From Candidatus Dadabacteria bacterium (GTDB lineage Bacteria > Desulfobacterota_D > UBA1144 > Nemesobacterales > JADFKM01), in the NCBI GenBank assembly GCA_022564935.1, contig JADFKM010000062.1, positions 1-11,171 of the forward strand: a DNA stretch of 11,171 nt, in the 5' to 3' direction. The translations under genes were made by a program, and so were the position numbers. This document shows, piece by piece, positions 4,669-11,171 of this stretch. The notes below the pieces were generated by a model. The model had not been told where the DNA came from and did not search any database. It saw nothing but the letters and a program-made list of their open reading frames with translations. Numbering within the stretch: the first letter of the stretch is position 1; every line of letters begins with the position of its first letter.

Positions 4669-4851
4669 TTTATCGCCCCTATTCGGTAATGGTTTCTCAA
4701 GGAGCTTTCGTATTTTCCCACTATGGGTTTAAGCATAGAGGAATTTAATCTATCCTTATTTAATTCCCCAATCATCTAGGGTATCTTAATAGCTACGTGC
4801 AGCCTAAAAGTATTTAGTTCCTAATTGCCGATAGATATACTCGCAGATGCA
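4669..4851. promoter_or_regulatory. Intergenic region upstream of the type III PKS with short hairpins
   Basis: This 183-nt AT-rich gap precedes the polyketide synthase gene. It contains CTATG/CATAG (4721-4738), then an imperfect 10-bp arm pair GGAATTTAAT / ATTTAATTCC (4740-4749 and 4758-4767, one T-T mismatch), then CTAAA-AGTA-TTTAG (4804-4817). None is followed by a T run, so they are not clear terminators. The promoter for the polyketide operon is expected here, but I cannot place -35 and -10 boxes with confidence. Confidence 0.35.
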
Positions 4852-5916
4852 ATGCCGAAAGTAGTGTCAATAGGGGTGGCCGACGCTCCATACTCTTATT
4901 CGCAGTCTGAAGTTAAGGACTTTGTCGCCGGTCTGTTCAGTGATTCCGGCGAGTTCATTCAGAAAATGATCAGAGTATTTGATAACTCAGGCATCGAATT
5001 CAGACACTTTATAAATGAGAAAGATTGGTATTCAAAACCAAGGACGTTTGTGGAGCGCAACAGCGTTTACCTAAACAACGCAAGAGCTATGGCAGCCAGG
5101 GCATTGAGCGCCTGCATCGAGGAGGCCGGCCTCGGGGCAAGGGAGGTCGAGCACATAATATTTGTGTCGAGCACCGGCATTTCCACTCCCACCATCGACG
5201 CCGTACTTTACAACGAGTTCGACTTCGACTCCCACATTAAGCGCACGCCGATTTGGGGCTCGGGCTGTTTGGGGGGAGCGGTCGGTTTGAGCCGCGCAAT
5301 GGAGTTTACCAGAGCATACGCGGACTCGTGTGTGCTGGTCGTTGCCGTCGAGCTTTGCAGCCTGGCATTTCAGCTGGGCGACTGTACAAAGAGCAATGTT
5401 GTGGCTTCTGCGCTCTTCTCGGACGGAGCCGCATGTGCCCTAGTGGTAGGCGCCGAGCATAGGCTGCACCATCTTCCGGGCGTCAGTCTCATAGACTCTA
5501 TGTCGACCACTTATCCCGATACCCTTGATGTCATGGGCTGGGATGTGTCGGACTCCGGCCTGAGGGTTATTTTCAGCAAGGACATCCCAACTATCGTCAG
5601 GGGCCTTGTTAAAGACAGCATAGTCGAGCTGCTTTACGGCAGGGGATTGGAGCTTGAGCAAGTCGTTCGGTATCTTGCCCATCCGGGGGGTATGAAAATC
5701 CTTCAAGCCTATCGCGATGCGCTCGGGCTTGGGGAAAAGAGCCTGGAGATTTCCAAGGAGGTTCTGCGTACTCACGGCAATATGTCGTCGCCCACCGTAC
5801 TCTACGTATTGAAGGATTATTTGCGCAGCGGTGCGGGAAAAGAGGGCGAGCTTGGTATAATAACCGCGCTTGGGCCCGGGTTTGGCTCAGAGCTGATACT
5901 GTTTGAGTTCGGATGA
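4852..5916 (+). CDS. Type III polyketide synthase (chalcone/stilbene synthase superfamily, alkylpyrone/alkylresorcinol type)
   Basis: This is a homodimeric ketosynthase that extends an acyl-CoA starter with malonyl-CoA units and cyclises the chain to pyrones, resorcinols or phloroglucinols without an acyl carrier protein. The catalytic triad is complete: Cys139 in WGSGCLGG, His277 in LAHPGG and Asn310 in HGNMSS. The C-terminal GPGFGSELIL is the usual family closing motif. The length of 354 aa is normal. I start it at the ATG at 4852 (MPKVVSIGVA), because bacterial members begin near this point; an in-frame TTG at 4825 would add nine residues, and neither start has a strong Shine-Dalgarno. The stop overlaps the start of the next gene as ATGA, so the two should be translationally coupled. 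That partner is an ICMT-family methyltransferase, as in Bacillus bpsA-bpsB and Streptomyces srsA-srsB, which points to a fatty-acyl-primed lipid product. The exact product cannot be read from sequence. Confidence 0.92.
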   Translation: MPKVVSIGVADAPYSYSQSEVKDFVAGLFSDSGEFIQKMIRVFDNSGIEFRHFINEKDWYSKPRTFVERNSVYLNNARAMAARALSACIEEAGLGAREVEHIIFVSSTGISTPTIDAVLYNEFDFDSHIKRTPIWGSGCLGGAVGLSRAMEFTRAYADSCVLVVAVELCSLAFQLGDCTKSNVVASALFSDGAACALVVGAEHRLHHLPGVSLIDSMSTTYPDTLDVMGWDVSDSGLRVIFSKDIPTIVRGLVKDSIVELLYGRGLELEQVVRYLAHPGGMKILQAYRDALGLGEKSLEISKEVLRTHGNMSSPTVLYVLKDYLRSGAGKEGELGIITALGPGFGSELILFEFG

Positions 5917-6422
5917 GCGTGTTCACACTGTTTTTGGGCTTTTTAGTCGCACAGCGCCTGTTTGAGCTTGCGCTTGCAAGGGTCAATGAAAGGCATGTGA
6001 AAAAACTGGGGGCAGTTGAGTTTGATACAAACGGCTACCGGGTGATTGCGGCCTTTCACTCCCTCTTCTTCATATCGCTGATAACGGAAAAAACGGTGCT
6101 CGATACACCTCTCGTATCTCTGTGGATTCCCCTCGGCGTGTTGTTTGCCTTAGCACAGGTACTCCGGTATTGGGCAATATTTAGCCTCGGAAGGCTCTGG
6201 AATACGAAAATACTGGTAGTCCCGGGAATGAGTCGGGTGACCGCCGGGCCGTACGCTTTCATGAACCATCCCAATTACCTGGCAGTGATTATCGAATTCG
6301 TCACTGTGCCCCTTATTTTTTCCTGCTACTTTACGGCAGTGGTCTTTTCACTCCTTAATCTGTTGATTCTCAAAAGGCGAATCGGAATCGAAGAAGCGCA
6401 TTTAGAAAACCTGTCAAGGTAG
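5913..6422 (+). CDS. Isoprenylcysteine carboxyl methyltransferase (ICMT) family membrane methyltransferase, BpsB/SrsB-like
   Basis: This 169-aa integral-membrane protein has about five hydrophobic segments (roughly 2-20, 43-58, 67-90, 122-137 and 138-153). It carries the S-adenosylmethionine-binding hallmarks of the ICMT/PEMT group: GPYAFMNHPNY (HPNY at 119-122) and RIGIEEAHL near the C terminus. In eukaryotes the family methylates prenylated cysteine, but bacterial members beside type III polyketide synthases O-methylate alkylpyrones or alkylresorcinols. Its ATG overlaps the synthase stop by 4 nt, so that role is the best inference here. Membrane location suits a long-chain lipid substrate. 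The start MSVFTLFLGF leads directly into the first membrane span, and the gene ends with TAG. No other tailoring enzyme follows. Confidence 0.88.
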   Translation: MSVFTLFLGFLVAQRLFELALARVNERHVKKLGAVEFDTNGYRVIAAFHSLFFISLITEKTVLDTPLVSLWIPLGVLFALAQVLRYWAIFSLGRLWNTKILVVPGMSRVTAGPYAFMNHPNYLAVIIEFVTVPLIFSCYFTAVVFSLLNLLILKRRIGIEEAHLENLSR

Positions 6423-7261: not shown

Positions 7262-7297
7262 TTGAATACACACCCCATAACTATTAAACTAATTTGG

Positions 7298-8278
7298 ATG
7301 TCCTTTCCAATCACTCGCCTTAGAAGGTTGAGACGCTCAAAGCAATTCAGGGATCTGGTGAAAGAGACGCAGCTTCATACGGGCGACCTCGTCTACCCTA
7401 TGTTCGTCGTTCCCGGAACTGGAGTGAGGGAAGAGATAGGGTCGATGCCCGGGATTTTCCGCCGGTCAATTGACCTCACCGTCGAAGAGGTTAAAGAGGC
7501 CAGGGATTTGGGGCTGCGCGCTGTGCTTCTTTTCGGAATCCCTGAGGAAAAGGACGATGTCGGAAGCGGGGGCTACGATGAGGATGGTATCGTGCAGAGG
7601 GCACTCAGGGAGATAAAATCTGAGATAGATGACGTATTAATGATAACCGACGTCTGTATGTGCGAGTATACTAGCCATGGCCACTGCGGAATAATTAAAG
7701 ACGGCACGGTGGACAACGATGAAACGCTCACGCTCCTTGCGCAGACCTCGCTTTCACACGCAAAGGCGGGGGCGGATATGGTCGCTCCTTCGGACATGAT
7801 GGACGGCAGGGTCGGTGCGATAAGAGAGATGCTCGATGTGGGCGGCTACCCGGACATACCAATAATGTCGTATTCGGCAAAATACGCCTCGGCCTTCTAC
7901 GGCCCGTTCAGAAAAGCGGCCGACTCCACACCGGAGTTCGGGGACAGGCGCGGATACCAGATGGACCCTTCCAATGTTCGCGAAGCCATTAGAGAAATCG
8001 AGCTCGATATCGAGGAGGGGGCCGATATTATTATGGTGAAGCCCGCCCTTTCGTACCTGGACGTCATAAGGGCCGCACGGGAGGAGTTTGATCACCCTCT
8101 GGCCGCATACAACGTGAGCGGCGAATACTCGATGGTGAAAGCGGCCGGTATGCAGGGTCTGATAGACGAGCAGAGGGTGATGATGGAGATTCTAACGAGC
8201 ATCAAAAGGGCCGGAGCGGAGATAATCATAACCTACCACGCCAAGGAAGCTGCGAAGATTTTGGGCGGTCTCGACTGA
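7298..8278 (+). CDS. hemB: Porphobilinogen synthase (5-aminolevulinate dehydratase), zinc type
   Basis: This cytosolic enzyme condenses two 5-aminolevulinate molecules to porphobilinogen, the first common step of tetrapyrrole (haem, sirohaem, B12) synthesis. The two active-site lysines are K195 ([15 protein letters not shown]) and K248 ([12 protein letters not shown]), almost the same numbers as in E. coli HemB (195 and 247). The catalytic-zinc cysteines are present as [14 protein letters not shown] (C120, C122, C130), so this is the zinc-dependent class and not the magnesium class, which has aspartates there. I start at ATG 7298 ([12 protein letters not shown]), giving 326 aa, a normal length; an in-frame TTG at 7262 would add 12 atypical residues. 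No clear Shine-Dalgarno precedes either. The gene follows the interrupted membrane protein by 53 nt and is followed by a small DUF4177-like gene after 15 nt. Its early codons carry copy 2 of a 16-bp repeat. Confidence 0.96.
7333..7348 (+). repeat. 16-bp direct repeat, copy 2 (inside hemB)
   Basis: This exact second copy of the 7246-7261 sequence encodes most of RSKQF, a conserved part of the HemB N terminus. The hemB copy is therefore likely the original and the intergenic one the duplicate. Confidence 0.7.
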
Positions 8279-8496: not shown

Positions 8497-8940
8497 CTAG
8501 TCTGCGTGACCGGCGGTGAACTGCCCCCAGTTAATCAAAACCACTCCCGCCACAACAAGGACTATTCCCGCCGTCCGTTGGGTCGTTAGTCTCTCGTTAA
8601 GGATAATTACTGCGTTCAGTGCGGTGAACAATGGGAAGATGTTTACCAGAGGGACGACTCTTGTCGCTAGGTCTTGTTTGAGGGCGACGAAGTATATAAA
8701 GAGGCCGAGAATGCCGAAAAACCCACCGGCAAGTATTAGGAGAAATGTTTTACCGTCTACCGCCATCACCTCTTGCTGCTTGCCTGTGATGACTGTAAGC
8801 ACTATCAACACAACAGTGGTCGCAATGCTTCGGATAGTAAGCACGGTGAAGGATGATGCGTCTGAGAGACTCATCTTCTCAAGTATGGGAGCTATTCCCC
8901 ACAAAAAGGCAACAAGTAGACAAAGGGCAACTATGTTCAT
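8497..8940 (-). CDS. Single-repeat EamA/DMT-family membrane transporter
   Basis: This 147-aa hydrophobic protein has five predicted spans (about 2-20, 29-53, 64-88, 92-115 and 120-138) and corresponds to one EamA repeat; typical EamA permeases carry two (about 300 aa, ten spans). Family features are the opening ALLLVAF-LWGIAPI-type span (here LLVAFLWGIAPILEK), the ALKQDLATRVVPLVN loop and the closing LNERLTTQRTAGIVLVVAGVVLI, with NE-R-L at the end of span 4. Half-size members probably dimerise as EmrE-type transporters do. The substrate is unknown. The ATG has GGAGGA 8 nt upstream, a good ribosome binding site. The gene converges on the DUF4177-like gene with an 11-nt gap and lies about 107 nt downstream of the M20-HAD fusion on the same strand. 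Confidence 0.85.
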   Translation of the reverse strand: MNIVALCLLVAFLWGIAPILEKMSLSDASSFTVLTIRSIATTVVLIVLTVITGKQQEVMAVDGKTFLLILAGGFFGILGLFIYFVALKQDLATRVVPLVNIFPLFTALNAVIILNERLTTQRTAGIVLVVAGVVLINWGQFTAGHAD

Positions 8941-9047: not shown

Positions 9048-10682
9048 TTACCCGGCATTAATAAGCTTCATGACCTCGCTCAAGCTGTAAATCCTGGATA
9101 CGTCCTCCCTGCCGTCATACTTTCCCTCCCTGTCGAGAAGTAGGGGCTTGATACCGGACGACCCGGCGCCCATGTAGTCTAGCTCCATGCTGTCGCCTAT
9201 GTGTATGCTTTCCTCAGGAGCAAGTGAGAGTTTCCGCAGGGCCAGCTTAAAGATCTCCGGCGAGGGTTTTGCGTACCCCGATTCGCTGGATATAACGAAA
9301 GAGTCGAAATATTTGGTGATATCCAGCCTATCGCATACATCGTATACCCTTGAGTCGAAGTTGGATATCACTCCCAGTTTGATACCTCTGTCTTTAAGCT
9401 CCTCCAGAACGGCCGTCGTTTCGGGAAATAGCACCCACGCGTCCGTTCTGAAAACCTCAAATAGCTTCTCGAAATATTCGTCGAACCACTCTCCGGGATC
9501 GTGTATTAAAGTCTCCAGATGTCCGGGAAAGTTTTGGTTTTGATATTCCTCGATCGTTCTCGGCCCGGCCCCATAGAGCACCGTCGGGACGCCGGCCGCG
9601 GCATAATGTCGGGCGTCGGTATAAAGCGGCACGCCCCCGGTGGCCACATCACAGCCGAAGACTTCTGTGGCCCGCCGGCACAGGACTTCGGCCAGCCCAT
9701 CGACGCCGGCCAGCGGAGTCAGGGGTTCGGCCAGCAAGATGCGCCGCACTTCGACGCCCGATTCCGGAAAAATAGCCGCCGCATCGCCAATGACCTGGCG
9801 CAACCGGGCCTCGATCTCCGTGGTGTTTTCCTCCGGGATGATCCGGCGATCGAGCCTGAAGGTGACCCGGTCCGGCACCACATTTGTGTTGATGCCGCCG
9901 TCGATCAGACCGACGTTCAGCTGCGGCGCCCCGATACCAGGGGTCGCCGAGGGCTTCTCGGGGTAGCTCTTGCGTTCCTCGTAAAGCGCCGTCAGTATGG
10001 CCTGCGCCGCTTCCAGCGCATCCACCCCGGTCTCGGGCCGGGCCGCATGGGCCGAGCGGCCCGTGACCTCTACCTCGAGATGCAGGCAGCCGTTATGGGC
10101 CGTAATGACCGCATAGGAAAACCCGGCGCTGATCGCCAGGTCCGGCCTGCTCAGCCCCTGATCGAGCAGCCACTTCGGCCCGGTCGCGCCGCCCGCTTCC
10201 TCGTCGTAGGTAAAATGCAGCTCGATCGTGCCCACGAGCGGCGCCGCGGAGTCTTCCAGCGCCTTCAGGGCAAACAGATAGGTCGCAAAATCGGATTTGG
10301 AGACAGCCACTCCGCGTCCATACATCCATCCATCACTGATCTCGGCGCCATAGGGTTCATGCGACCAGCCGTCGCCGGGCGGCACCGCATCGCCGTGGGC
10401 GTTAAGCGCGATGGTCGGGCCCTCATCCGCCTTGGCACCGAAACTGCGGCGTGTGATCAGGTTGGTGGTCGAGACCATGCCCTGTTCGCGCACCAGATCG
10501 CCCAGGACCGGGTGCCGCTCAACCTCGAACCCCAGCGCCTCGATCAGCCCGGCCGCCCGGTCGGCGTGGGACGCACAATCGCCGGGCGGGTTAGCCGACG
10601 GCGTGCGCACCAGTTCGGCCAGAAATTCGACCTGGGCTTGGTGGCTCTTGTCGATCAGGTCGACGATTTTCTGCTCACTCAC
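9048..10682 (-). CDS. Chimeric open frame: M20 metallopeptidase-like N-terminal part joined to a truncated REG-2-like HAD phosphatase
   Basis: This reads as one 544-aa frame from a GTG at 10682 (GGAG 6 nt upstream; an in-frame TTG at 10694 is the alternative). Residues 1 to about 379 are an ArgE/DapE-like M20 protein: NAHGD (H96, D98), GRGVAVSKSD, YDEEAGG (E161, E162), the dimerisation-domain motif TGRSAHAARPETG, and YTDARHYAAAGVP near its end. It then breaks off after GPRTIEE, where the family normally continues with a metal-binding histidine segment. Residues about 380-544 are the back of a HAD-IA (REG-2/HDHD3-like) phosphatase: ISNFDSR (motif II, S440), GYAKPSPEIF (motif III, K472) and HIGDS-x3-D (motif IV, D497 and D502). 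The first hundred or so HAD residues, including the DxD nucleophile, are absent. GC drops sharply at the join (about 9545). Neither part should be catalytically complete. It overlaps uraD by 8 nt. Recombination, transfer or an assembly join is more likely than a designed fusion. Confidence 0.8.
   Translation of the reverse strand: MSEQKIVDLIDKSHQAQVEFLAELVRTPSANPPGDCASHADRAAGLIEALGFEVERHPVLGDLVREQGMVSTTNLITRRSFGAKADEGPTIALNAHGDAVPPGDGWSHEPYGAEISDGWMYGRGVAVSKSDFATYLFALKALEDSAAPLVGTIELHFTYDEEAGGATGPKWLLDQGLSRPDLAISAGFSYAVITAHNGCLHLEVEVTGRSAHAARPETGVDALEAAQAILTALYEERKSYPEKPSATPGIGAPQLNVGLIDGGINTNVVPDRVTFRLDRRIIPEENTTEIEARLRQVIGDAAAIFPESGVEVRRILLAEPLTPLAGVDGLAEVLCRRATEVFGCDVATGGVPLYTDARHYAAAGVPTVLYGAGPRTIEEYQNQNFPGHLETLIHDPGEWFDEYFEKLFEVFRTDAWVLFPETTAVLEELKDRGIKLGVISNFDSRVYDVCDRLDITKYFDSFVISSESGYAKPSPEIFKLALRKLSLAPEESIHIGDSMELDYMGAGSSGIKPLLLDREGKYDGREDVSRIYSLSEVMKLINAG
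9535..9555. other. Composition and protein-family breakpoint
   Basis: To the right, third codon positions are almost all G or C. To the left, codons such as TAT, CAA, AAC, TTT, TTA and ATA become common on the coding (minus) strand. The change coincides with the end of M20 similarity (GPRTIEE, ending about 9546) and the start of HAD similarity. I see no inverted repeat, transposase or tRNA at the join. Confidence 0.65.
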
Positions 10683-11171
10683 CCCTATCTCCAAAAATAT
10701 CTTCGAGCCGAAAGTAGGCGATGCGCTCGATCTCCTTCAGCGCTGTCCCGAACTCGGTCGCCGGATCATTTTCGAGGCGCCCTTCGAGCGCCGCCAGAAT
10801 GGCCGCCCGGTCGCTGCCCTTGACCGCCATGATAAAGGGAAATCCGAAGCGCTCCGTATAAGCCGTGTTCAGGCGATCTAGTTTCGCAAATTCCTCCAGC
10901 GTACATTCGCCCAAGCCGGCGCTTGCCTGCTCGCTGGCCGAGGCCTCAGTGAGCTCGCCAGCGACCGCCAGCCTGCCGGCCAGGTCTGGATGCGCGCGGA
11001 TGAGCGCCAGTTTTTTTCCGTCATTGGCGGCACGCATCGCTGCGCACAGCACCTTGTGAAGCCCTTCGAGCGTGCCGTCTTCGTCACGACCTGAAGCCCC
11101 GTCAAAAGCATCCTCTGCGACCCAAGTCGAACGTTCGAACACCGGACCGAAGGTCGCCACGAACTCTTCGC
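10675..11171 (-). CDS. uraD: OHCU decarboxylase (2-oxo-4-hydroxy-4-carboxy-5-ureidoimidazoline decarboxylase), partial
   Basis: This cytosolic enzyme carries out the last step of urate oxidation, decarboxylating OHCU to S-allantoin after urate oxidase and HIU hydrolase. The frame runs open to the window edge; 164 residues are visible starting EEFVATFGPVFE, close to full family length (about 165-170), so only a few N-terminal residues are missing and the true start lies outside. The GTG at 11160 is internal to conserved sequence. Diagnostic motifs are LIRAHPDLAGRLA with the catalytic histidine, SASEQASAGL with the conserved glutamate, and RFGFPFIMAVKG. The stop TGA overlaps the M20 gene start by 8 nt, so the two were an operon in their source genome. 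High GC and GC-rich codon use set it apart from genes left of 9545. It looks alphaproteobacterial, judged by eye only. Confidence 0.92.
   Translation of the reverse strand, partial: EEFVATFGPVFERSTWVAEDAFDGASGRDEDGTLEGLHKVLCAAMRAANDGKKLALIRAHPDLAGRLAVAGELTEASASEQASAGLGECTLEEFAKLDRLNTAYTERFGFPFIMAVKGSDRAAILAALEGRLENDPATEFGTALKEIERIAYFRLEDIFGDRGE

Follow-up and report, generated by a model that had tools for sequence, protein, structure and literature searches.

Chimeric contigs produced by misassembly have been described in metagenomics, and in mock-community data the chimeric sequence was always located at the contig ends (PMC8172020). The two proteins that meet at our locus have described counterparts as well, namely the REG-2-like HAD hydrolases (TIGR02252, DREG-2) and the ArgE/DapE family deacylases (M20), which in Alphaproteobacteria are encoded beside uraD. 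The window, i.e. the whole stretch of DNA analysed here, is an entire contig (C92, 11171 bp) of a MAG that consists of 104 contigs and is 88.6% complete. It resembles the described chimeric metagenome contigs in the position of the chimeric sequence at the contig end, in the presence of two taxonomic sources, in the abrupt step in composition and in the truncation of both genes at the join. The fused ORF of this contig is very probably an artefact of metagenome assembly, in which two unrelated cut-off genes share a reading frame by chance. The features on which this reading is based are the following.

7262–8278, plus strand: hemB, a host gene and conserved neighbour (domain/family match and synteny)
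8497–8940, minus strand: EamA-family half transporter of the host, a conserved neighbour of the HAD gene (domain match and synteny)
9048–9485, minus strand: REG-2-like HAD phosphatase, a host gene, 5'-truncated, with motif I and the greater part of the cap lost (51–63% identity to intact HADs of the host order; conserved gene order)
9486–9545, no strand: 60 nt matching neither side, with a host-like GC of 0.45 (no match to the HAD cap, to the M20 tail or by blastn)
9546–9549, no strand: join between the DNA of two organisms (homology stop at 9547, tetranucleotide breakpoint at 9549)
9547–10682, minus strand: M20 ArgE/DapE-type deacylase of alphaproteobacterial origin, 3'-truncated at GPRTIEE (Pfam; 81% nucleotide identity to the alphaproteobacterial region L032; longer tails of the relatives)
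10675–11169, minus strand: uraD (OHCU decarboxylase), truncated at its 5' end, where the contig stops, on the same alphaproteobacterial fragment as the M20 gene (TIGR03164, 207 bits)

The M20 part and the HAD part lie in a single open frame on the minus strand (9048–10694, 548 codons) with no stop codon between them. The earlier note had described such an uninterrupted frame, and this description is correct, both sets of domains being found by Pfam. The start given in the ORF list is a TTG at 10694, while the GTG at 10682 is the more likely start of the M20 gene. The catalytic and dimerisation domains of the M20 protein are both present (Peptidase_M20, PF01546, and M20_dimer, PF07687) and extend to residue 382, and HAD families cover the C-terminal portion of the frame, HAD_2 beginning at residue 403. 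Along the frame, GC3 drops from 0.789 in the M20 part to 0.624 in the HAD part at the join. The preservation of the frame is unremarkable in itself, since about one third of same-strand joins preserve it.

The likeness of the HAD part to the REG-2-like hydrolases consists in a match to positions 86–203 of the DREG-2 model and in 63% identity to the best relative. It differs from them, however, in that about 86 N-terminal positions of the model are unmatched, the score (116.7) is under the cut-off of 155.2, and the first ~100 residues, including motif I, are missing in comparison with intact relatives. The earlier note had held that the HAD protein starts after its nucleophile motif I and retains motifs II–IV, and the alignment upholds both points (SNFDSR, the K in YAKP, and GDSMELD); the description of motif I as DxD, however, does not stand literally, as the motif reads FFDAADTLF in the intact relatives. 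The best HAD relatives in the host order are complete ORFs of 236–346 aa that have kept their N-terminus. The gene order hemB, a 63-aa ORF, EamA and HAD is preserved in most of the ten host-order loci examined, and the HAD gene therefore belongs to the host contig.

The M20 part and uraD have a different source. Positions 9547–11171 align at 81% nucleotide identity with an alphaproteobacterial uraD–M20 region (L032, contig JADFIA010000025); the identity to another such region, L033, is 74%, uraD adjoining M20 in both, and the window's deacylase shares 83% protein identity with that of L032 in the same uraD–M20 order. Of the 80 genome loci that match the M20 part best, nearly all belong to Alphaproteobacteria or unclassified Proteobacteria (by record title, chiefly Rhodospirillales, Acetobacteraceae and Hyphomicrobiales), and the best M20 matches inside the host order are only 26–37% identical. 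The window's protein differs from the alphaproteobacterial deacylases in missing its last ~31 residues. All of the best 80 relatives run 31–47 residues beyond the break point and contain an AN.H motif; the C-terminal segment that carries this motif and the last metal-ligand histidine, the loss of which had been pointed out in the earlier note, is missing here.

The boundary between the two sources is sharp. The sequence up to ~9485 is host DNA. The DNA homology to L032 and that to L033 both stop at 9547, and the maximum-likelihood breakpoint of tetranucleotide composition falls at 9549; the boundary exceeds chance, since the breaks in homology and in composition agree within 2 nt. The GC of 9547–11171 is 0.646, above any of the host windows of equal length (n = 393; mean 0.515, maximum 0.623), and the tetranucleotide score per base of this tail is 0.187, compared with a maximum of −0.019 for the host windows and an alphaproteobacterial mean of 0.225. 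The 60 nt at 9486–9545 show no resemblance to the native HAD cap above that of shuffled sequences, match neither the M20 tail nor any fetched locus, and have no blastn match; they may come from a diverged part of the host DNA or from a short third fragment. Because these 60 nt match neither side, a simple join through a shared k-mer is not demonstrated, and with the relatives found, which are more distant than the exact donor and than a host relative of the same genus, no k-mer common to both sources could be shown at the join. In this respect, and in the distance between the two sources, our contig differs from the published example, where the genomes involved were closely similar (PMC8172020).

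These properties of the join are relevant to the possibility that the assembler made no error and that a physically chimeric molecule, formed as a library or amplification chimera, was assembled as such. Biologically this would be a sub-variant of the assembly artefact. The short stretch that fits neither side and the lack of a demonstrated shared k-mer are in agreement with such an origin, while the lack of an inverted repeat at the join argues against it; the join likewise shows no repeats or hairpins of note. Chimeric molecules of this kind are normally too rare for assembly, and we consider this origin unlikely.

A false join made during assembly, which we favour, fits the data because the foreign piece reaches the contig end, no mobility genes are present, and the genes that natively adjoin HAD are located terminally on another contig of this MAG. 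In the relatives, metH is found upstream of the HAD gene in nine of nine cases, and a small gene resembling response regulators lies between metH and HAD in eight of the nine. In the window's MAG, both genes are on contig C96 (the B12-synthase domain of metH at 9140–9715, the regulator-like gene at 9807–10160), which terminates at 10217, 42 bp beyond the start codon of the regulator, and faces the missing start of HAD; the HAD start codon of the relatives comes at about the same distance past the regulator. C96 stops at the expected native position, and therefore its end and that of C92 would face each other across ~0.3 kb holding the HAD N-terminus, the two contigs probably being adjacent in the real genome. 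A search of the MAG for this N-terminus, run without a positive control in this genome, gave no match, a result accounted for by the end of C96 just before the HAD start. Two signs of a chimeric contig are thus observed: DNA of two organisms with a sharp boundary (9547 by homology, 9549 by composition) and a native continuation elsewhere in the assembly (C96).

According to the sequence of events that we propose, the host contig would have broken inside the HAD gene at a coverage gap, the N-terminal part of the gene being left in the unassembled interval. The true host continuation would be the end of C96 with metH and the regulator-like gene, and the 1.6 kb contig end of an uncultured alphaproteobacterium, bearing the 5'-truncated uraD and the 3'-truncated M20 gene, would have been wrongly attached where C96 belongs. 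We infer that the join arose outside the cell, through the assembler or in the library.

A real and recent insertion, or horizontal transfer, by which alphaproteobacterial purine-catabolism DNA (uraD–M20) entered the HAD gene of the host and turned it into a dead in-frame fusion, would also account for the well-defined foreign DNA and for the flanks that meet without a stop codon, and C96 could then adjoin the other end of the insert. Such an insertion requires a second boundary, however, and the foreign DNA continues to the contig end with no such boundary seen. No integrase, transposase or other mobility gene was found on the window contig. The remaining donor operon was not found in the MAG, where puuE gave no match and the only aminotransferases are 33–35% identical to that of the operon; uraD was not found in the other genomes of the host order (n = 42); and the end of C96 at the expected native position also speaks against an insert. 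We regard a real insertion as highly improbable. The conditional reading of the earlier note, in which the join, if real, would mark the edge of a deletion, recombination or transfer of recent date, is not supported, since the foreign DNA extends to the contig end, mobility genes are lacking and the HAD neighbours are located on C96.

The finding that the earlier note had named as refuting the chimera reading, the same fused M20–HAD architecture in other genomes, was looked for in the host order and its class, at the 80 alphaproteobacterial loci and in plasmids, and was seen in none of them. A 100-residue query spanning the join matched nothing that covers both its halves, whether among 57 genomes of the class or among 72,556 plasmid records. 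No HAD gene of the REG-2-like kind was found near M20 in the fetched flanks of the best 80 M20 loci, and among the matches no HAD relative has a frame exceeding 346 codons. A genuine bifunctional M20–HAD enzyme, for which the single open frame of 548 codons might be taken, is contradicted by the truncation of both parts (HAD without motif I, M20 without the C-terminal AN.H segment), by the GC3 step at the join and by the lack of a fused relative in the class genomes, the M20 loci and the plasmid records, and can practically be discarded. The earlier interpretation of the frame as a breakpoint chimera, and not as a selected bifunctional enzyme, thus gains support from the two cut genes and from the failure to find a fused relative.

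The assembly chimera that we favour illustrates cleanly that two genes joined in frame at the end of a contig can be mistaken for a new fusion protein. It also puts a false uraD into the gene list of a lineage otherwise devoid of uraD. The value of the observation lies in curation, i.e. in trimming C92 after ~9485 and linking it to C96, and not in biology.

Two minor observations concern other parts of the material. At positions 4825–6422 the window encodes a type III polyketide synthase (DpgA-like, below the cut-off) followed by an ICMT-family methyltransferase, the reading frames of the two overlapping, and the same pair is present in a relative (L140). Contig C1 of the MAG (2264 bases) has a GC content of 0 and contains no readable bases, these being presumably withheld or masked as N.
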